Shown piece by piece: positions 29,970 to 43,715 of a stretch of DNA of 64,000 bases (positions are counted from its first letter, which is position 1; every line of letters begins with the position of its first letter). The position numbers and the translations under genes are program-made. A model generated the notes under the pieces. The model was not told where the DNA came from, searched no databases, and was given only the letters and a program-made list of their open reading frames with translations. Location of the stretch: contig JAUNIS010000003.1 of NCBI GenBank assembly GCA_030523325.1, positions 1 to 64,000 of the forward strand, written 5' to 3'. Source of the DNA: Phascolarctobacterium sp. (GTDB lineage: Bacteria; Bacillota; Negativicutes; Acidaminococcales; Acidaminococcaceae).

Positions 29970-32900
29970 CTAAAAAATTCTTGATACACTAATCGTCAGT
30001 TCTTCCAGTACGTCAAGCAAAACCTTCACCGTGTCTAGGCTTGTGAAAAGCGGCACATTGTTTTCGATAGCGCATCTACGAATAGCAACGCCATCTTCAT
30101 AATGCACGCCTGATAAAATTGCCCGGGTGTTGATAACGTAGCTTACATAACCAGCGCGGATGGATTGAAGAATTTCATCGCTGCCCTCGGAAGGTTTATG
30201 TAAAAGTCTTGTCTTAATGCCATGCTCCTTCATGTATTGAGCTGTAACAGTTGTAGCTTCAATATTAAAGCCCATATCATAGAAGCGTTTAACTAAAGGA
30301 AAGGCCTCGGGCTTATCTTCATCAGCCAAGGTAAAGATTACCGTTCCATAATTCTGCAAATTGCAACCAGAAGCAATCAAAGCTTTATAAGCAGCTCGAT
30401 GCAGCTTCTTATCATAACCAATGGCTTCACCGGTGGATTTCATTTCCGGAGAAAGATACGCATCCATACCTTTTAATTTACTAAAGGAGAAGGCTGGAGC
30501 TTTGACATACCACATATCCTTTTCATCAGGATAAATGGAGAAGAAACCTTGTTCTTTTAAGCTGACACCTAAAATTACCAGGGTTGCAATATCTGCCAAA
30601 GGATAACCTGTTGCTTTGCTTAAGAAAGGAACTGTTCTTGAAGAACGAGGATTTACTTCTATAATATATACGTCTTCATGCTCATCAACAATAAATTGAA
30701 TATTGAAGAGACCAACTATACCGATGCCGATACCTAATTTTTTTGCATATCTTAAAATAGTTCCTTTAACCTTATCAGAAATGCTAAAGGGCGGGTACAC
30801 GCTCATGGAGTCTCCAGAATGAACACCCGTTCTTTCCACCAGCTCCATGATGCCAGGCACGAAGACATCCTTGCCATCGCAAATCGCATCGACCTCGACT
30901 TCCTTACCTTTTATATAACGGTCAACTAAAACCGGCTTGTCCACGTCAACTTCAACAGCATATTTTAAGTAATGACGCATATCTGCTTCCTTGGAAACGA
31001 TTTGCATCGCACGTCCACCAAGCACAAAGCTAGGACGCACAAGCACAGGATAACCAATTTCACTAGCAGCCTTGACGCCATCTTCAATATTGGTAACAGC
31101 CATACCCTTAGGTTGAGGAATATTCAGTTCTAACAAAAGTTTTTCAAAAGCATCTCTGTTCTCGGCTTTTTCAATAGCGTCGCAGTCGGTGCCAATAATT
31201 TTTACATCATATTCTTTTAAGGGCTCAGCAAGATTAATTGCCGTTTGTCCGCCTAAGATGGCAATGATACCTTCCGGTTGCTCTTGCTCGATGATATTCA
31301 TAACGTCTTCAACGCAAAGAGGCTCGAAATATAATTTGTCACTTGTTGTATAATCAGTGGAAACAGTCTCAGGGTTATTGTTGATGATAATCGCTTCATA
31401 GCCGGCTGCCTTTATCGTTTTAATGGCATGAACCGTAGAATAGTCAAATTCAACGCCTTGACCTATTCTAATGGGACCGGATCCCAAAACGATTATCTTC
31501 TTTTTGTCAGAAATAATTGTTTCGTTCTCGTCTTCGTAAGTGGAATAGAAGTAAGGAACATAGCTTTCAAATTCGCTAGCGCAGGTATCAATCATCTTGT
31601 ATACGGGGAAGATATTGTTAGCTTTGCGCATGTCCCAAATATTTCTTGCGGTCTTGCCCCAGAAATCACCAATGACTCTATCGCAGAAGCCCATCTTTTT
31701 GGCTTCCTTGAGCACGTCAAGATTGTCAACATTCGCCTTAAGAACTTCTTCCATGCGAATAATATTATGGAGACTACGAGTAAAGAACGGATCGATCCAA
31801 GAAATTTTATAAATTTCTTCTTCACTTACTCCTCGACGCAAAAGCTCGGCCAAAGCATAAATTCTATCGTCGGTGCCATCCTTGATATAAATTTTCAGAG
31901 CATCCGTCTCGAAAGAGTCAAACTTAGGAGAATGTAAATGGTAAAGACCAATCTCCAAAGAACGAATCGCTTTTAAAATACTTTCTTCGAAGGTTCTGCC
32001 CACGCTCATAACCTCTCCGGTTGCCTTCATCTGAGTTCCCAGCGAATTATTTGCGTCGTAAAACTTATCAAAGGGGAAACGCGGCATCTTCGAAACTACA
32101 TAATCAAGTGCAGGCTCAAAGCTTGCCAATGTATTTGCTAAAGGAATCTCATCAAGCCTGAGGCCAACGGCAATCTTTGCGGATACTCTAGCAATAGGAT
32201 AACCGCTAGCTTTGGAAGCCAGTGCAGAAGAACGACTTACACGAGGGTTTACTTCGATTAAAAAATATTGGAAGGAATTAGGATCTAAAGCAAATTGTAC
32301 GTTACAGCCACCCTTAATCTTTAAAGCTCTGATAATTTTCAAAGCGGAATCACGGAGCATGTGATATTCCTTGTTGGTTAAGGTTTGGGATGGACAAACA
32401 ACAATGGAATCACCCGTATGTACGCCAACGGGATCCATGTTCTCCATATTACAAATCGCAATGGCTGTGTCATTAGCATCGCGCATTACTTCGTATTCGA
32501 TTTCCTTGTAGCCCTTGACGGATTTTTCGATGAGGGCTTGATGAACAGGTGAAAGCACGAGAGCATTCTTTAAAATTTCCCTGAGCTCTGCTTCATCATC
32601 TGCAAAGCCACCGCCTGTTCCTCCGAGAGTAAAAGCAGGACGAATTACTACGGGGTAGCCAATATTTCTTGCAGCCTTAATCCCATCCTCCATACTTTCA
32701 GCAATTAAGGACGGTAGGATTGGTTCGCCAATCTCCATGCATAACTCTTTAAAGAGCTCTCTGTCTTCGGCCTTCTCAATACTTTCTCCATCCGTACCGA
32801 GCAACTCTACGCCACATTCATGCAGAATACCTTTTTTTTCTAATTGCATGGCGAGGTTGAGACCTGTTTGCCCGCCGATACCAGGCAGGATTGCGTCCGG

Positions 32901-33146
32901 TCTTTCCATGCGAATTACCTTAGCCATAAACTCTAAGGTAAGCGGTTCCATATAAACTTTATCTGCAACAGTATCATCGGTCATGATGGTTGCAGGGTTG
33001 GAGTTACAAAGCACAACTTCGTAGCCTTCTTCTCTAAGGGCGAGGCAAGCTTGCGTTCCTGCATAGTCAAACTCTGCTGCTTGTCCGATAACGATAGGAC
33101 CGGAGCCAATAACTAATATCTTGTGGATATCTGTACGCTTAGGCAT
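29970..33146 (-). CDS. carB: Carbamoyl-phosphate synthase large subunit
   Basis: Makes carbamoyl phosphate from bicarbonate, ATP and ammonia delivered by CarA, for pyrimidines and arginine. 1058 aa with two homologous ATP-grasp halves (carboxy phosphate ~1-400; carbamoyl phosphate ~550-930), an oligomerisation region between them and a C-terminal MGS-like allosteric domain. Repeated motifs such as [20 protein letters not shown] and [16 protein letters not shown] show the duplication. Its start overlaps carA by 8 nt. Confidence 0.97.
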
Positions 33147-34245
33147 TAGCTTGTCCTCCTTTCCATTCGTCCATCATTTGTGTGAAGATATCAAACAAAT
33201 AAGCACTATCTTGTGGTCCAGGTGCAGATTCTGGATGATATTGCACACTGGTAACAAAATCTTCCTTACAGCGCATACCTTCAACAGTATTATCAAGCAA
33301 ATTAATATGAGTAATTTCTAGCTTAGTGTTCTTGATGCTTTCAACATCAACCGCATAAGAATGGTTTTGAGAAGTAATTTCCAGCTTGTCGGTCAATAAA
33401 TTTTTAACAGGATGATTGCCTCCCCTATGTCCGAATTTTAATTTATAAGTTTTCGCACCATAAGCAAGAGCAAGCATTTGATGACCGAGACAAATACCAA
33501 AGATTGGTTTCTTGCCGATTAATTTTTTCAAATTGTTAATTAAAACTTCTACATCTGTCGGATCTCCAGGGCCATTGGACAAGAAAATTCCGTCAGGCTT
33601 TAAAGATAAAATTTTTTCTGCAGATGTATCGTAGGGCACAATAGTTACGTAGCAATTTTTTTTCGCCATCATGCGAGGAATGTTCAGCTTCATACCACAG
33701 TCCACAGCAACAACATGGTATTTACTTTCCGGCTTACCCATGCTATGAATTTCTGTTGCAGTTACGCGAGGCACTTGGTCGTGAGGCATAGTATATTTTT
33801 TTAAATAAGCTAAGGCTTCAGCCGTATCTTTTTGTGCAGAAGTAATGATTGCCTTGCAACTACCATAATTACGAATATGTCTTGCTAATTTTCTTGTGTC
33901 TAAGCCATAAACCCCGACGATACCATATTTTTTCATGATTTCGCTTAAGGTATGACTCGAACGGAAATTGGAAGGCTCGTCATTGTATTGACGCACAATT
34001 AAACCTGCGATGCTAGGCAGCTTTGTTTCGTAGTCGTCATCATTAATACCGTAGTTACCGATGAGCGGATAAGTCATAACAACTGCTTGGTCGGTATAAG
34101 AAGGATCGGAAATAATCTCTTGATAGCCAACCATGGACGTATTGAAAACCAATTCCACAACTGCTTCTCTCTCGCTACCAAAAGCATAACCGAGAATTTC
34201 AGTACCGTCTTCGATTACTATTTTTCTATTAAATGTCTCCCTCAT
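33139..34245 (-). CDS. carA: Carbamoyl-phosphate synthase small subunit
   Basis: Glutaminase subunit providing ammonia to CarB. N-terminal CPSase small domain (~1-150) and a class I amidotransferase domain with catalytic Cys in [11 protein letters not shown] (~residue 248) and His/Glu in [11 protein letters not shown]. 368 aa, usual length. AGGGGG stands 9 nt before the ATG and lies in the loop of a small TGTTAC/GTAACA hairpin. First gene of carA-carB-pyrG-purC. Confidence 0.97.
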
Positions 34246-34291: not shown

Positions 34292-34375
34292 AAAAAAAGG
34301 GCGCCTCGGGCACAAGCCCAAAGCACCTTTGCTTTTTCCACAATACATTTTATTACATTCGCTATTCGTTGTCAA
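34292..34375 (-). promoter_or_regulatory. carAB promoter and leader terminator (candidate attenuator)
   Basis: TTGACA (34370-34375), 17-nt spacer, TAAAAT (34347-34352). The predicted start is ~34340. Directly after it is the hairpin GGTGC..GGGC-TTGT-GCCC..GCGCC (34300-34327) with a T7 run (34292-34298), before carA. It may serve both as terminator for the upstream permease and as an attenuator of carAB. No PyrR-binding consensus is evident. Confidence 0.6.
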
Positions 34376-37777: not shown

Positions 37778-39436
37778 TTATCCTTCTACGGGATAATCCT
37801 GAAGAGCATCAAAGCCTGTTTCTCCAGTTCTGATTTTGATTACATCTTCAACATCATAAACGAATATCTTGCCATCACCATATTTACCGGTATAGAGAAC
37901 AGATTTTGCTGTATTAACTACATCGGCAACAGGTATTGCGCTAACAATCATTTCTACCTTAACCTTGGGAAGAAGATGAGAAGCAACCTCTGCGCCACGA
38001 TACATTTCGGTAGAACCTTTTTGCAGGCCGTAGCCTAAAACCTTTGTTACAGTCATACCAGTGATACCAAGCTTATCTAAAGCAATCTTAAGAGATTCAA
38101 ATCTCGGCTGAGATGTAATGATGACAACCTTGCTCATCTTAACTGCTCCAGAAGGTTTAACTGCTTCAGTATGAACAGGAGTAACATAATCGTTGAAAAC
38201 TTGTGGAACAGGAACGAAATCTGCATAGCTTGAAGGAAGACCATGCTCTTCCATATCGAGGCCTTTTATTTCTTCTTCCTCGCTAACTCTTAGACCAAGA
38301 GCGGAATCAAGAATACTAAACACAACGAACATTGCTACAGCAACATAAGCCATAACAGAGACAACGCCGAGAGCCTGCACGCCTAAAAATTTTGCACCAG
38401 CTCCGTAAAGCAAGCCTTCTTTTAAATGGAAGAAGCCAGTTAAGATTGTTCCAGCTGCACCGCATACACCATGTACACTGATCGCACCAACAGGATCATC
38501 AATCTTCAAAACCTGGTCAAAAAATTCAACACTTACAACGACGAGGACACCACAAATTCCACCGATGATGATAGAGCCTAAGGGACTAACAACATCACAG
38601 CCTGCTGTAATACCAACGAGACCTGCAAGTACGCCGTTTAAAGTCATAGAAACATCTGGCTTACCATATTTAACCCAAGTATAAACCATAGTTGCAGTTG
38701 CACCAGCGCAGGCAGCCATATTGGTGGTAATAAAAATCTCGCCCATTGATACGAGAGCCTCGTCACCAGTTGCACAAACTGTTGACGCACCGTTGAAACC
38801 GAACCAACCAAACCAAAGTAAGAAAACTCCAAGAGCACCTAGAGGAATGCTGTGACCTGGGATTGCATTAACGGTTCCATCCTCGTTATATTTACCAATA
38901 CGAGGACCGATCATTGCTGCACCAACGATTGAGGCAACGCCACCAACCATATGTACGGCAGTAGAGCCAGCAAAATCATGGAAACCTAGTTCGGCAAGCC
39001 AACCGCCGCCCCAAATCCAGTGACCACTGATAGGATAAATAATTGCGGAAATAACCATAGAGTAAATGCAATAAACCATAAAGTTTGTTCTTTCGGCCAT
39101 TGCACCAGATACAATTGTTGCTGCTGTAGCACAGAACATAGTTTGGAAGATGAAGAAGGCAGGTGACGGATAAGAGTCGCCATAATCTCCTGTTACGAAA
39201 AAGTCAGGAGTACCGATAAACCCACCAATGCTATCGCCAAACATCAAACCAAAACCGATAAGCCAAAAAACTAAAGAACCAAGGCTAATATCCATAACAT
39301 TTTTCATGACGATATTAGCTGCATTCTTTGCTCTAGTGAAACCAGTCTCGACCATTGCAAAGCCAGGCTGCATGGAAAAAACTAAGAAAGCACCAATCAA
39401 AACCCAAATTGTGTCGGCAGATACATATTTACCCAT
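37778..39436 (-). CDS. amtB: Ammonium transporter AmtB fused to a C-terminal P-II (GlnB/GlnK) domain
   Basis: Ammonium channel and its own regulator on one 552-aa chain. Residues ~1-385 form the 11-span Amt channel (FQTMFCATAATIVSGAMAER, twin-His region HMVGG and SVHGVCG). After a ~50-residue linker, a P-II domain starts at ~434 (MSKVVIITSQPRF). It has the T-loop GYGLQKGSTEMYRGAE and the C-terminal signature GKIFVYDVEDVIKIRTGE. The residue at the Tyr51 uridylylation position is Val (RGAEV). GGAGG precedes the ATG. It lies downstream of GS III. P-II normally blocks Amt in response to 2-oxoglutarate/ADP; a tethered version would act in cis. Confidence 0.95.
   Translation of the reverse strand: MGKYVSADTIWVLIGAFLVFSMQPGFAMVETGFTRAKNAANIVMKNVMDISLGSLVFWLIGFGLMFGDSIGGFIGTPDFFVTGDYGDSYPSPAFFIFQTMFCATAATIVSGAMAERTNFMVYCIYSMVISAIIYPISGHWIWGGGWLAELGFHDFAGSTAVHMVGGVASIVGAAMIGPRIGKYNEDGTVNAIPGHSIPLGALGVFLLWFGWFGFNGASTVCATGDEALVSMGEIFITTNMAACAGATATMVYTWVKYGKPDVSMTLNGVLAGLVGITAGCDVVSPLGSIIIGGICGVLVVVSVEFFDQVLKIDDPVGAISVHGVCGAAGTILTGFFHLKEGLLYGAGAKFLGVQALGVVSVMAYVAVAMFVVFSILDSALGLRVSEEEEIKGLDMEEHGLPSSYADFVPVPQVFNDYVTPVHTEAVKPSGAVKMSKVVIITSQPRFESLKIALDKLGITGMTVTKVLGYGLQKGSTEMYRGAEVASHLLPKVKVEMIVSAIPVADVVNTAKSVLYTGKYGDGKIFVYDVEDVIKIRTGETGFDALQDYPVEG
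38135..38149 (-). promoter_or_regulatory. Internal ribosome binding site for a free P-II
   Basis: GGAG (38146-38149) stands 8 nt before the in-frame ATG (38135-38137) of MSKVVIIT inside the amtB fusion. Use of this start would give a 119-aa stand-alone P-II ending at 37778. Confidence 0.4.
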
Positions 39437-39680: not shown

Positions 39681-41777
39681 TTATTCGTTAACACCGAAGA
39701 GTAATTCGCCGTAGGTCGGATACGGTAAGTACTTGCCACCGGTCAAAGCTTCTGCACTGTCAGCTGCTTCTCTGAGCTCGGTCATTGCTGAGAAAACTTT
39801 TTCGAAGAATGCTTCTGCTTTAGCTTTGGGGCATTCTATCTTTTCACATTCCTCAAGAGCAGCGGCAAGCTTCAAGCTTGCTTTATACATAGCATCGGTG
39901 TAACTAGAAAGTCTCTTTGCCAAATCAACTTCCGCACCAGGTTCGATGCCAAGAGATTTTTTCTCCATAGCGATACGAATAAGGTCCTTGGTATAACAGC
40001 TAACTGCAGGAAGAATATCTTTGTGGAGCATCTCTAACATAGTTGCACCTTCGATGCCTAGAACAGTTGTATAATTCTCGAGCAGAATATTTACACGAGA
40101 TTTAGTCTCGGCTGCAGTAAAGATTCTATATTTTTCAAAGAGAGCAATGTTCTTATCGCTTGCCATATACGGAAGAGCTTCCGGAGTATTTTTCAAATTG
40201 AGCAGGCCGCGCTTCTCAGCTTCAACAACCCATTCATCTGCATAACCATTGCCGTTGAAAATGATGCGCTTGTGTTCTGTATAAATTTCTTTAACAAGAT
40301 CGTAAACATCAGCTTCAAGGTCAGCAGAATCCTCGAGTTTTCCTGCTACGTAATCGAGCGCTTCGGCTACGATGGTATTGATGACGATGTTCGGACCAGC
40401 GATGGAGAACATGGAACCGAGCATACGGAATTCAAATTTATTACCAGTAAATGCGAACGGGGATGTTCTGTTACGGTCAGTATTATCTTTAACGAGAGCC
40501 GGAATGGTATCATCGCTAACTTTAATATAAGTTTGCGGGTTGCCATCATAAACCTCGCCTTTAGCGATTGCTTCTAAAACAGCTGTTAATTCGTCACCTA
40601 AGAAAATGGAAACGATTGCCGGGGGAGCTTCGTTAGCGCCGAGACGATGATCGTTACCAGCGGACGCAACGGATACGCGGAGCAAATCTTGGTATTCATC
40701 AACTGCTTTAATGATTGCTGCCAAGAAAACTAAGAAGCGAAGATTTTTATAAGGGGTCTTACTAGGATCTAAAAGGTTCAAGCCTTCTTCAGTAGACAAT
40801 GACCAGTTATTATGTTTACCACTGCCATTAACACCTGCAAAGGGTTTTTCATGAAGCAAGCAAACGAGACCATGTTTTAAAGCGATGCGTTTCATGAATT
40901 CCATTGTTAATTGGTTGTGGTCAGAAGCAACATTAGTGAAACTATAAATAGGAGCAAGCTCGTGCTGAGCAGGAGCAACCTCATTATGTTCAGTTTTAGC
41001 AAGGACGCCCAGCTTCCAAAGTTCTTCGTCCAAATCTTTCATGAAGCCAAGAACTCTTTGTTTGATGATGCCAAAGTAATGGTCGTCAAGTTCTTGTCCA
41101 CGAGGAGTTTTAGCACCGAATAAGGTACGTCCTGTGTAAACCAAGTCTTTACGTTTTGCCCACATTTCTTTATCAACCAAGAAATATTCTTGTTCGGGCC
41201 CAACGGTGCTGTTAACTCTAATTGTATCAATGCCAAATACTTTCAGTACGCGGCAGGCTGCTTTGCTAATTGCATTCATAGAACGAAGCAGTGGAGTTTT
41301 CTTATCAAGTACGTCACCAGTGTAGGAACAGAAAGCTGTAGGAATGCACAAGCAATTATCTTTGATAAATGCATAGCTAGTCGGATCCCAAGCTGTATAG
41401 CCACGAGCTTCGAAGGTAGCACGTAAACCACCGGACGGGAAGCTAGAAGCATCGGGTTCGCCTTGGATTAATTCCTTGCCGGAGAAGCTCATGATAACAC
41501 GACCTTCAGCGGTAGGTGCGATAAAGCTTTCATGTTTTTCAGCTGTGATACCGGTCATGGGTTGGAACCAATGGGTGAAGTGAGTGCAGCCATGTTCTAA
41601 AGCCCAATCCTTCATTGCATTCGCAATAATGTTGGCAATCTCAAGATCTAAGGGTTTACCTTCTAAAACTGCCAGCTTGTAAGCCTTGTAGGTTGCTATG
41701 GGCAGACGATCTTTCATTGCAGTTTCGTTAAATACCAAGCTGCCAAATAATTTCGGAACTTCATTAGTCATAGTCAT
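39681..41777 (-). CDS. glnN: Glutamine synthetase type III
   Basis: ATP-dependent synthesis of glutamine from glutamate and ammonium. The 698-aa length and sequence are those of the large GlnN/GS III class (dodecamer of ~75-80 kDa chains), not GlnA. GS III features: HWFQPMTGITAEKHESFI near the N-terminus, VGPEQEYFLVD (metal-binding Glu), the NEVAPAQHELAPI segment, EKPFAGVNGSGKHNNWSL (ATP/glutamate site) and RLGANEAPPAI. GGGAGG is 8 nt upstream of the first ATG. It shares orientation with amtB-PII downstream and has a structured leader. Confidence 0.96.
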   Translation of the reverse strand: MTMTNEVPKLFGSLVFNETAMKDRLPIATYKAYKLAVLEGKPLDLEIANIIANAMKDWALEHGCTHFTHWFQPMTGITAEKHESFIAPTAEGRVIMSFSGKELIQGEPDASSFPSGGLRATFEARGYTAWDPTSYAFIKDNCLCIPTAFCSYTGDVLDKKTPLLRSMNAISKAACRVLKVFGIDTIRVNSTVGPEQEYFLVDKEMWAKRKDLVYTGRTLFGAKTPRGQELDDHYFGIIKQRVLGFMKDLDEELWKLGVLAKTEHNEVAPAQHELAPIYSFTNVASDHNQLTMEFMKRIALKHGLVCLLHEKPFAGVNGSGKHNNWSLSTEEGLNLLDPSKTPYKNLRFLVFLAAIIKAVDEYQDLLRVSVASAGNDHRLGANEAPPAIVSIFLGDELTAVLEAIAKGEVYDGNPQTYIKVSDDTIPALVKDNTDRNRTSPFAFTGNKFEFRMLGSMFSIAGPNIVINTIVAEALDYVAGKLEDSADLEADVYDLVKEIYTEHKRIIFNGNGYADEWVVEAEKRGLLNLKNTPEALPYMASDKNIALFEKYRIFTAAETKSRVNILLENYTTVLGIEGATMLEMLHKDILPAVSCYTKDLIRIAMEKKSLGIEPGAEVDLAKRLSSYTDAMYKASLKLAAALEECEKIECPKAKAEAFFEKVFSAMTELREAADSAEALTGGKYLPYPTYGELLFGVNE

Positions 41778-41837
41778 GATTCAGACCTCCCTAAAACTTA
41801 TTTTCTTCTCCCTTTTATTTTTTCTACGGGAGCGCTT

Positions 41838-41855
41838 GGTTACAATTTTGTAACC
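41838..41855. promoter_or_regulatory. Perfect palindrome in the GS III leader
   Basis: GGTTACAA-TT-TTGTAACC, 60 nt upstream of the start codon and downstream of the promoter. Could be a protein operator or an mRNA hairpin. Confidence 0.45.
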
Positions 41856-41868
41856 CCTCATTTGGCAT

Positions 41869-41905
41869 AAAACAATCAAAGCAGCTGACCTGCTATGATT
41901 GTTTT
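41869..41905 (-). promoter_or_regulatory. Second leader hairpin upstream of GS III
   Basis: AAAACAATCA/TGATTGTTTT outer stem and AGCAG/CTGCT inner stem. It follows the leader terminator and ends in a short T-run, so it may be a second attenuator or a competing structure. Confidence 0.5.
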
Positions 41906-41912
41906 AGAAAAT

Positions 41913-42003
41913 AAAAAAAGCAACTTAGAGGTTAGGAGTACTCTCCAACAACCTCGTTGTTGCTTTATGGGGACATTATAAACCTGCTTTTTTTACTTGT
42001 AAA
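41913..42003 (-). promoter_or_regulatory. glnN: GS III promoter with promoter-proximal terminator
   Basis: TTTACA (41998-42003), 17-nt spacer, TATAAT (41975-41980). The expected start is ~41968. A long hairpin AAAGCAAC..GAGGTT..GGAG/CTCC..AACCTC..GTTGCTTT (41917-41966) begins at once and ends in T7 (41913-41919), 135 nt before the gene. Transcripts must pass this terminator, so attenuation is likely; the signal is unknown. Confidence 0.65.
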
Positions 42004-42079
42004 GTGTTTTTTTACAAAATTTTCATAAATTTATAGCAAGTATCCTCAAGTTGTTAAATTGTTAACAAGATTATTTAAT

Positions 42080-42139
42080 TTATTTCTGTTGCAAGCCGTT
42101 TTTTTCAGGTGTATATGTGGTAGAATTAAGCTGATCCAT
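42080..42139 (-). CDS. Possible 19-codon small protein or leader peptide
   Basis: ATG with a perfect GAAAGGAGG 6 nt upstream opens a 19-codon frame (MDQLNSTTYTP...) that ends in TAA. It lies in the 507-nt gap between the M20 peptidase and GS III, about 75 nt before the GS III promoter. The peptide is hydrophilic and matches nothing I know. Two CCATAATGG-like palindromes lie at and upstream of its start. The SD is the only real support. Confidence 0.35.
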   Translation of the reverse strand: MDQLNSTTYTPEKNGLQQK

Positions 42140-42284
42140 AATGGACCTCCTTTCAGTAGTATTTTGTGTGGTAACTTTATTCTACCAAAAAGAATCCATT
42201 ATGGGTCATTTTTTTGTTTAGTTGTTCAATTTCATTTTACAATTTAAGAATTTATATTTTTTATGTTTTAATCAAAATTTTCGT

Positions 42285-43445
42285 TTAAAAATCATCAGGG
42301 AGGGCAAGAATGGTTGCCACAATTTTCTTGGCTTGCAGTTTGATGCTCTCAATCAAAGCATATTCTTGCAGGGTATGATTGAATTCACCGAGAATACCTA
42401 CGCCGCAAAGAGTGGGCACGCCTTCCATCGTCGTATAGGCAGCATCCGAGCAACCGCCAGAATATACCGATTTAGGAGCTGCGCAGCCAAGCTCAACTGC
42501 AGCCTTGCTGTATAGATCGAAAAGAACTTGGGTTTTGGGTAATTCTTCCATAGCGTTAAAGATTGCCTCCACGCTATATTCTGCTTTAATGCGTTCGTCT
42601 TCATTGTCAGCAGCGATTGCGTTAACGTTTTCCACTGCCTTAACGTAGTCGTCGTTGGTAGCAAAACGAATGCCAACAGTTACATCGCAGAAATCGGGAA
42701 TAATATTGGAGCCACTGCCACCTGCAATTTTACCACAGTTAAAATAGGCGCCCTCGTAATCGTTCAACCCTTCGATTTGTTGCATCTTCTTGGCTGCGGC
42801 CATGATCGCAGAAGCACCAGCCAGAGGTGCATTACCTGCGTGAGATGCCTTGCCCCAAACCTTGAGACGAGTTACACCGCCTCCCTTACGACGAGTAATA
42901 ATGTCACCATTCACAAGCCCTGACTCACAGTTAAAAGCAACAGCCGTATGTTTGGCTGCATCCTTGTAGGCTTGAATCGCTTGACCTTTAGATAATGCGT
43001 GAGCAACCTCTTCGTCACCAGCGAGGCACAGCTTGAATTGACGCTTGTTATAGCCTGCATGTTGCAGAGCCTTAATCGCTAAGAGAGCAATGACTATACC
43101 GCCCTTCATATCGTAAGCGCCGGGTCCACGTACGATTCCGTCTTTAATAGAAAAAATATTTTCCCAGGAACCAATTTTATGAACCGTATCCATATGACCC
43201 ATAAAAAGAACTGCCGGAAGCTCGGTAGGAGCTGTCTGGGCATAAAGACAAGGGCCAGCATTTTCGAACTCATATTTTTTTGTAGTCATATCCATGGCAC
43301 GCACGTAGGTATCTAAATGAGCTGCCATTTTTTTTACGCCTTCAATCTCTGCAGAAGGACTCTCGATACGCACTAATTCTTCTAGTACGCTCACCATATT
43401 TTCGTATTGGTTGTCAATGTATTGAAAAATTTCTTGCTTATCCAT
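42285..43445 (-). CDS. M20 family metallopeptidase (carboxypeptidase G2-like)
   Basis: Zinc-dependent amidohydrolase/exopeptidase, 386 aa, cytoplasmic (no signal peptide). Metal ligands and catalytic residues: His and Asp in LFMGHMDTVH, bridging Asp in GAYDMKGG, catalytic and ligand Glu in DEEVAH, and a C-terminal His in EFNHTL. A dimerisation domain (~180-290) interrupts the catalytic domain. Closest type is glutamate carboxypeptidase/CPG2, which removes C-terminal glutamate from peptides or folates; the substrate is inferred. Start chosen for AAGGGG 9 nt upstream. Confidence 0.88.
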   Translation of the reverse strand: MDKQEIFQYIDNQYENMVSVLEELVRIESPSAEIEGVKKMAAHLDTYVRAMDMTTKKYEFENAGPCLYAQTAPTELPAVLFMGHMDTVHKIGSWENIFSIKDGIVRGPGAYDMKGGIVIALLAIKALQHAGYNKRQFKLCLAGDEEVAHALSKGQAIQAYKDAAKHTAVAFNCESGLVNGDIITRRKGGGVTRLKVWGKASHAGNAPLAGASAIMAAAKKMQQIEGLNDYEGAYFNCGKIAGGSGSNIIPDFCDVTVGIRFATNDDYVKAVENVNAIAADNEDERIKAEYSVEAIFNAMEELPKTQVLFDLYSKAAVELGCAAPKSVYSGGCSDAAYTTMEGVPTLCGVGILGEFNHTLQEYALIESIKLQAKKIVATILALPDDF

Positions 43446-43715
43446 AGCGTAAATCCCCTTTATGATAAATTTTGAAGCATACAAGAATATTTTATGTCAT
43501 TTTTAAAAATTTCACAAGGGCGCGCGAAAATTTTCATCTTCTACTCAGCTCAACAAATCTTGATACACGAGCTCCAGCTAAATTCTTGTATGATTCGTCG
43601 AACCTTCTCATTGCTAAATCTTTTCACGCCGAATCCCTTAAACGCCGAACTCTGAAAACTGGAAGATTCGTGTTTAGACGAGGCGTATGAAAAAAATCTC
43701 GTGGGGACACAGCTA
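43446..43715. other. Gap upstream of the M20 peptidase
   Basis: No credible gene. There are several short dispersed matches around ATTCGTCG/ACGAATC and ACGAG/CTCGT that could pair, adjoining the structured element. An 82-codon minus-strand frame across 43550-43798 starts with TTG, lacks an SD and runs through the element, so it is not called. Confidence 0.5.

Follow-up and report, generated by a model that had tools for sequence, protein, structure and literature searches.

What does a terminator hairpin do when it lies directly behind the promoter of a glutamine synthetase gene? The question is raised by a locus in the window, by which we mean the whole stretch of 64,000 nucleotides analysed here. 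An earlier note on this DNA described a TTTACA/TATAAT promoter, a hairpin followed by seven T's, a second hairpin and a palindrome ahead of the gene for glutamine synthetase III (GS III), and it suggested transcription attenuation, perhaps by glutamine, a P-II partner or an ANTAR-type antiterminator. All of these elements are indeed present on the minus strand, and the features needed for the argument are as follows.

39681-41777, minus strand: GS III, the gene predicted to be controlled (domains GSIII_N, Gln-synt_C and Gln-synt_C-ter)
41975-42003, minus strand: GS III promoter, TTTACA-17-TATAAT, with 11 of 12 matches; also found directly before the hairpin in relatives
41919-41964, minus strand: intrinsic terminator hairpin (hairpin 1), exclusive with P1 by fold and covariation
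41948-41963, minus strand: P1, predicted antiterminator hairpin GCAAC-AACGAG-GTTGT, with an A1/G4 hexaloop (loop 41958-41953), from the sequence and alignment A1
41913-41919, minus strand: T7 run of the terminator, from the sequence
41869-41905, minus strand: hairpin 2, AAAACAATCA..TGATTGTTTT, specific to the window's own genome
41838-41866, minus strand: GCCAAATGAGGGG followed by the palindrome GGTTACAAAATTGTAACC (41855-41838), a GAGGGG plus GGYTTAC..GTAARCC hairpin conserved at genus level

Two exclusive folds at the start of the GS III transcript

The boxes of the promoter (TTTACA at 42003-41998, a 17-nt spacer and TATAAT at 41980-41975) make it the best-matching of three promoter-like sites in the region, a number equal to that expected by chance (mean 3.3). 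Judging from the -10 box, transcription likely starts at the A at 41968. The terminator hairpin begins 11 nt past the -10 box; it does follow the promoter directly, as had been described, and its beginning has to be moved from about +2 to about +5. The leader as a whole (41778-41975) folds with -68.9 kcal/mol, compared with -41.05 (sd 3.9) for shuffled sequences (z = -7.14), and none of 200 shuffles was as good. A simple terminator scan misses hairpin 1 because of its internal loops; its only results are the core of hairpin 2, found on each strand, and a single site on the plus strand. No translated short open reading frame fits into the roughly 5 nt between the likely start and the hairpin, and a leader-peptide attenuator was rejected for the GS III leader, as there is no space for one ahead of the terminator.

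Inside the 5′ arm of hairpin 1, at about +6, lies an element that the earlier description of this hairpin did not mention. P1 is a 5-bp stem closed by the six-base loop AACGAG, and thus an A1/G4 hexaloop as we define it here, that is, a six-base loop with A at position 1 and G at position 4 on a stem of at least three pairs. These two bases are reported as the signature of ANTAR target hairpins (PMC3369931). In the terminator fold, the 5′ arm of P1 pairs with the distal 3′ arm instead, so that P1 and the terminator are mutually exclusive; the 5′ arm of the terminator consists of the 5′ arm of P1 and, in most relatives, of the loop as well, and the terminator therefore overlaps the hexaloop and excludes it. 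Averaged over 27 leaders, the terminator region has a stability of -22.6 kcal/mol versus -4.7 kcal/mol for P1 alone, and this large difference suggests that termination is the default outcome.

We consider it probable that the 5′ end of the GS III mRNA acts as a transcription attenuator and that a response regulator with an ANTAR domain opens it by way of one hexaloop. The analysis shows that there are two exclusive folds, that both are conserved, that G4 never varies in the aligned leaders, that a second hexaloop is missing and that ANTAR proteins co-occur with the leader; ANTAR binding, readthrough, the signal and the sufficiency of a single hexaloop are what we infer. By default, the nascent RNA would fold into the intrinsic terminator, and transcription would stop at about +50 to +56. 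A PdtaS-like kinase would phosphorylate the ANTAR regulator, probably under nitrogen or glutamine shortage, and the phosphorylated dimer would catch the A1/G4 hexaloop of P1 once this is clear of the polymerase. Bound by the regulator, P1 would retain its 5′ arm, so that the terminator would be blocked and the polymerase could read through into GS III.

Induction on nitrogen shortage is proposed here because NitR of Clostridium saccharobutylicum is reported, in the passages of PMC6316151 drawn on here, to induce GS/GOGAT genes on nitrogen limitation. The likeness consists in an ANTAR protein that governs the expression of glutamine synthetase when nitrogen is limiting. The two systems nevertheless differ, as NitR has been reported for GS/GOGAT genes together with an antisense RNA (PMC6316151), whereas here the candidate regulator belongs to an unlinked PdtaSR-like pair.

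Conservation of the leader and the distribution of ANTAR regulators

The regions upstream of GS III were collected from relatives by DNA match (32 of 61 genomes) and by protein domain (41 of 59 genomes of the family and 65 of 260 genomes of the class). Ten loci that repeated a genome were dropped before alignment, and three identical leaders were also left out. The 64 regions yielded 48 distinct leaders: 27 belong to the GCAAC type found in the window, and 21, from other Negativicutes families, to a GAGTC-AAYGAN-GACTC type. The former make up alignment A1 (26 leaders from the window's own family and one from another), and 20 of the latter make up alignment A2, from which one leader with tandem hexaloops (L089) was excluded. 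Thirteen of the 64 regions show neither pattern: nine belong to genus g14, which we read as cases in which GS III lies behind glmS, and four, with a different leader, to genus g17. In genus g17, a hairpin AAGGC-AATGGC-GTCTT with a terminator precedes GS III (for example, G022:C6:10822 and 12116; L021, L025, L075 and L076), and a second ANTAR gene lies directly beside GS III on the other strand.

The comparison of leaders for covariation, which the earlier note had recommended, favours the terminator: 6 of the 11 pairs of its helix in alignment A1 change on both sides, loop positions 1 to 3 and their partners among them, and none of 500 shuffles reaches that number. Since the P1 stem is at the same time paired in 97.8% of the cells of this alignment, the same columns must obey two structures. 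In alignment A2, the terminator uses the 3′ arm of P1 and is paired in 95% of cells, while P1 itself is paired in 100% of cells and is nearly invariant, so that a stem that hardly varies gives no covariation support.

The loop, too, has a signature. G4 is present in all 27 leaders of alignment A1 and in all 20 of A2, and although the pattern by which the leaders were collected itself required this base, a search without that requirement found no leader with another base at position 4. Position 3 is fully variable in alignment A1 (C, T and A in nine leaders each). The A at position 1 is kept in 20 of 20 leaders of A2 and in 18 of 27 of A1; the other nine have G, which counts against an ANTAR switch. 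Among hexaloop hairpins followed by a T-run, those with the A1/G4 signature account for 44 of 88 in 61 Negativicutes regions and for 34 of 68 in 80 regions of a wider, mostly clostridial set, for a flat expectation of 1 in 16. In the reported structure of EutV, G4 stacks on Tyr164 and A1 makes no contact (PMC8934654), and a loop in which G4 is fixed and A1 less so would fit that structure.

The wider set was obtained by scanning genome contigs with the GS III protein, which gave 80 loci; judged by their titles, most are from Clostridia, some from spirochaetes and one from Acidaminococcaceae. Requiring an A1/G4 hexaloop on at least five pairs and a T-run within 75 nt, we found a leader at 28 of the 80 loci, compared with a mean of 0.48 in shuffled sequences; by the same scan, 52 of the 80 have none, and this, too, speaks against the switch. 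A promoter matching 10 to 12 of 12 positions, with a -10 box ending 9 to 21 nt before the stem, precedes 22 of the 28. Negativicutes and Clostridia leaders thus have a common layout of a start, one hexaloop and a terminator.

If an ANTAR protein opens these leaders, the genomes that carry them should encode one. The window's genome has a single ANTAR match (PF03861), a protein with REC and ANTAR domains (L077:3845-4426), whose gene begins 2 nt after a kinase gene that encodes GAF_PdtaS and HisKA_2 domains. Its nearest relatives in the PDB are 1s8n (E 3.4e-56), which we take to be PdtaR (Rv1626), and then EutV (6wsh and 6ww6, E 1.7e-42). When positions are counted along the EutV alignment and shifted by two, R142, K143, Y164, M172 and R175 of EutV and its phosphorylated D54 are retained, while K147, R168, N173 and R177 are replaced by R, Q, S and S; these four changes count against the switch. 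In its closest solved relative and in its kinase type, the pair resembles PdtaS/PdtaR of Mycobacterium tuberculosis. The difference is that the mycobacterial targets are reported to lie at ribosome binding sites and to act on translation (PMC8164766), whereas here the target lies at a terminator.

Across the 59 genomes of the family, GS III and ANTAR proteins are both present in 40 and both absent from 12, all of the latter belonging to genera g13 and g16. Six genomes, all less than 87% complete, have an ANTAR protein alone, and one has GS III alone. Matches to the leader model R1 were found in 38 of 46 genomes with an ANTAR protein versus 2 of 13 without; one of these two matches is marginal (E 0.008), and the other comes from G013, an assembly of 400 contigs in which GS III has the leader and no ANTAR match was found. 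Both this genome and the 8 of 46 ANTAR-positive genomes without an R1 match weigh against the switch. Outside the family, the leader was found in 28 of 66 GS III genomes with an ANTAR protein versus none of 13 without (p = 0.0018 in a one-sided Fisher test, which, like the comparisons within the family, ignores phylogeny); in this count, L226 was left out, and L181, from the window's family, was scored as leaderless, its loop having G at position 1. Because most genomes of the class encode an ANTAR protein (217 of 260), it is the absences that carry the weight in these comparisons. For many gut Negativicutes, the leaders suggest a target set for their single ANTAR regulator. Taken with the exclusive folds and their conservation, this co-occurrence gives good support to the proposal of transcription attenuation before GS III, and together with the A1/G4 hexaloop it agrees with the suggestion of ANTAR-type control.

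A controller of another kind could in principle operate the same pair of folds. When 41700-42300 was compared with all 4227 families of Rfam 15, which we assume to include the glutamine riboswitch families, no match was found up to E 1, and glutamine riboswitches (both the cyanobacterial glnA type and the Downstream-peptide type), the T-box and other known RNAs were rejected for this leader on these grounds. The resemblance to the cyanobacterial glutamine riboswitch that had been denied from the sequence is thus also missing at the level of covariance models, and direct control by glutamine finds no support here. The RAT antiterminator of BglG/LicT proteins was rejected as well, since the window's genome, the one searched, encodes no CAT_RBD protein, while 4 of 14 controls were positive. 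To our knowledge, no known metabolite aptamer is as small as a stem-loop of some 16 nt, which counts against a ligand. We thus regard it as unlikely that the P1/terminator pair is run by another RNA-binding protein or by a small ligand such as glutamine: it can be said for this reading that the binding of an ANTAR protein to P1 is a prediction, that P1 is highly conserved for so small an element and that glutamine riboswitches are reported for other genes related to glutamine synthetase (PMC6316151), but the empty Rfam search, the missing LicT-type protein and the A1/G4 signature combined with ANTAR co-occurrence all point the other way.

One hexaloop or two

The GS III leader shares much with the dual-hexaloop attenuators of Enterococcus eut (EutV), nasF (NasR) and amiE (AmiR): a six-base A1/G4 loop on a short stem that excludes an intrinsic terminator in the leader of a nitrogen gene and, as for eut, a REC-ANTAR regulator of the EutV type with an adjoining histidine kinase. 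It differs in having one hexaloop, placed at about +6, and in that the terminator of the window's family takes the 5′ arm and loop of P1 rather than overlapping a second hairpin. Glutamine-synthesis genes are listed among the dual-hexaloop matches in PMC3369931, and antitermination by EutV is reported to require both hexaloops (PMC3369931; PMC8934654), so that the presence of only one here counts against an ANTAR switch. According to passages of PMC8934654, however, the minimal binding motif is one hexaloop, EutV has micromolar affinity for single hexaloops, and the paper asks whether these are functional anywhere.

Could a second hexaloop have been overlooked? It seems improbable to us that this is an ordinary dual-hexaloop leader with a second hexaloop that has degenerated or is so weak that our scan misses it. 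No A1/G4 hexaloop of at least three pairs lies downstream of P1 in any of the 27 leaders of the A1 group, and upstream the promoter leaves only about 5 nt of RNA, which gives no space for another. The clostridial leaders are alike: among those of the wider set that were inspected, none has a transcribed second hexaloop upstream, and the lone upstream match (L197) sits at the promoter. What favours a hidden second hexaloop comes from the GAGTC-type group, in which 7 of 21 leaders have one; L089 is a true tandem, and the other six have weak, G-U-rich A1/G4 loops in the 3′ arm of the terminator.

Thus, the GS III leader is most likely a natural single-hexaloop attenuator, a variant that stands outside the dual-hexaloop class and probably works like it; we do not file it in that class because the tandem hairpin, one of its defining features, was looked for and is absent from the GS III leader. 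Searches of the open-access literature turned up neither a description of this GS III leader nor one of transcription attenuators with a single hexaloop. Searches for two-hairpin motifs would miss such leaders. With natural candidates in dozens of species, the question of whether one hexaloop is sufficient can be tested on ready-made templates.

A more trivial reading, in which hairpin 1 merely terminates an upstream transcript and the promoter lies ahead of it by chance, appears very improbable. An M20 peptidase gene of the same orientation (42285-43484) does end 281 nt ahead of the GS III promoter, as this reading would need. Nevertheless, promoter, short distance and hairpin are kept as a unit in relatives and in Clostridia, and a plain terminator would not keep a nested hexaloop with its G4 while other loop bases vary.

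Other candidate targets and neighbouring elements

Within the window, a leader of the same design (34375-34292) precedes carAB.

29970-34245, minus strand: carA (33139-34245) and carB (29970-33146), identified from their protein sequences as a glutamine-hydrolysing carbamoyl-phosphate synthase
34347-34375, minus strand: carAB promoter, TTGACA-17-TAAAAT, from the sequence
34292-34335, minus strand: candidate single-hexaloop attenuator of carAB, with P1 AAAGC-AAAGGT-GCTTT (34335-34320), terminator GGTGC..GCGCC (34327-34300) and a T7 run, from the sequence
G000:C17, about 28245-28050, minus strand: intergenic structured RNA with the core GGCCAAATGAGGGGACTTTTGG; also at L161 3246-3000 and in the relatives L162-L166

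Scanned over its full length, the window has the motif at 7 places against a control mean of 1.1, so that the motif alone is weak evidence, and the carAB case rests on promoter, terminator and gene together. With a 5-bp limit, the carAB leader was found in the family only in the window's own genome (1 of 30 rows, two of the rows being the same genome). Nine carAB regions were inspected: in five from genus g14, a terminator is preceded by an AAC-AAAGGY-GTT hexaloop with a stem of 3 bp; this is missing from L291, and L280, L288 and L292 have none. With five regions of shorter stem in favour and four others not, the carAB leader is less well supported than that of GS III. Model R1, which has two matches in the window's genome, misses it because the terminator of R1 is built on the other arm of P1.

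Other genes preceded by model matches, among the 20 loci whose contexts were inspected (a minority of the weak matches to model R2), are glmS (L167, L169 and L078), the gene for LL-diaminopimelate aminotransferase (dapL; L078) and, in other families, a second glutamine synthetase of about 635 aa (L173-L175, L178 and L180; in L179, a 660-aa frame). In L078, glmS and GS III adjoin, and the leader match precedes glmS. Two R2 matches lie elsewhere, namely L176 (G100:C105:528-593), before a gene of the trimethylamine methyltransferase family (MTTB), and L177 (G088:C21:11408-11462), before a gene for an EAL-domain protein.

The second R1 match of the window's genome (G000:C17:28177-28245, E 9.6e-6) is intergenic. 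There, a structured RNA of about 190 nt, which has a terminator of its own, lies downstream of a promoter and a single-hexaloop attenuator. Six genomes of the genus share this RNA, including an outer stem and the core GCCAADTGAGGGGA; no reading frame common to the six was seen, and no Rfam family reaches its gathering score at the locus, nearby tRNA genes aside. Its 14-base core also occurs in G018 and at a second place in the window's genome, both of which were rejected as further copies, having neither the attenuator nor the flanks of the RNA. In being a non-coding RNA that goes with an ANTAR hexaloop, it recalls EutX/Rli55 (PMC8934654), but here the single-hexaloop terminator stands before the structured RNA, as a gate, and not within it.

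EutX also provides the model for a last alternative, in which the short attenuated RNA of about 50 nt is itself functional, for example by titrating the ANTAR protein as a decoy. EutX is reported to sequester EutV, and single hexaloops bind that protein at micromolar concentrations (PMC8934654); a strong terminator would likewise suit a decoy. However, almost all of the matches inspected are linked to a gene of nitrogen or glutamine metabolism or to one further RNA, a linkage that a decoy does not need, and we hold this alternative to be scarcely credible.

Returning to the ANTAR-operated attenuator, we lean slightly towards a broader proposal, according to which ANTAR antitermination needs no more than one hexaloop, provided that this is located at the start of the transcript and overlaps the terminator. 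Throughout the Negativicutes and in part of the Clostridia, GS III would usually be controlled by this minimal switch, which would also gate a nitrogen regulon (GS III, the second glutamine synthetase, glmS, carAB and dapL) as well as, in the window's genus, the structured RNA.

The remaining folds of the GS III leader had been read as a stack with hairpin 1. Of the three, only hairpin 1 is conserved beyond the genus; hairpin 2 and the palindrome were rejected as parts of the switch since they are not conserved with it outside the genus, and they seem to lie outside it. In four relatives from the genus (L002-L005), the region of hairpin 2 holds another terminator-like hairpin, overlapped by a GTGC-AACGAA-GCAC A1/G4 hexaloop about 150-170 nt upstream of GS III, and these leaders are perhaps tandem attenuators. 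The GAGGGG and GGYTTAC..GTAARCC hairpin lies upstream of the GS III ribosome site, with a paired insertion in L001-L004 and only roughly preserved in L005. GS III leaders of the genus, that of the window among them, thus have a GAGGGG similar to that of the intergenic RNA, with a hairpin behind it, and GCCAAATGAGGGG is common to the GS III leader (41866-41838) and that RNA.

Further upstream, an 18-codon open reading frame with a strong ribosome site lies within inverted repeats (42256-42096, minus strand). It was rejected as a leader peptide or switch RNA and is instead the truncated end of an insertion sequence, several copies of which lie at contig ends of the genome; copies of 42256-42096 continue into what resembles the N-terminus of a transposase (HTH_38, a weak match with E 0.001), and HTH_38 together with rve is encoded in a relative, a pair that is presumably IS30-like. 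Nearer to the promoter, about 48 nt upstream of the -35 box, a near-perfect inverted repeat, TTGTTAAATTGTTAACAAG (42051-42069), is a possible operator. At the other end of GS III, the transcript probably terminates downstream of the gene at a hairpin whose tail is rich in T, and so ahead of the gene for an ammonium transporter fused to a P-II domain in one protein (amtB-PII, 37778-39436, minus strand).
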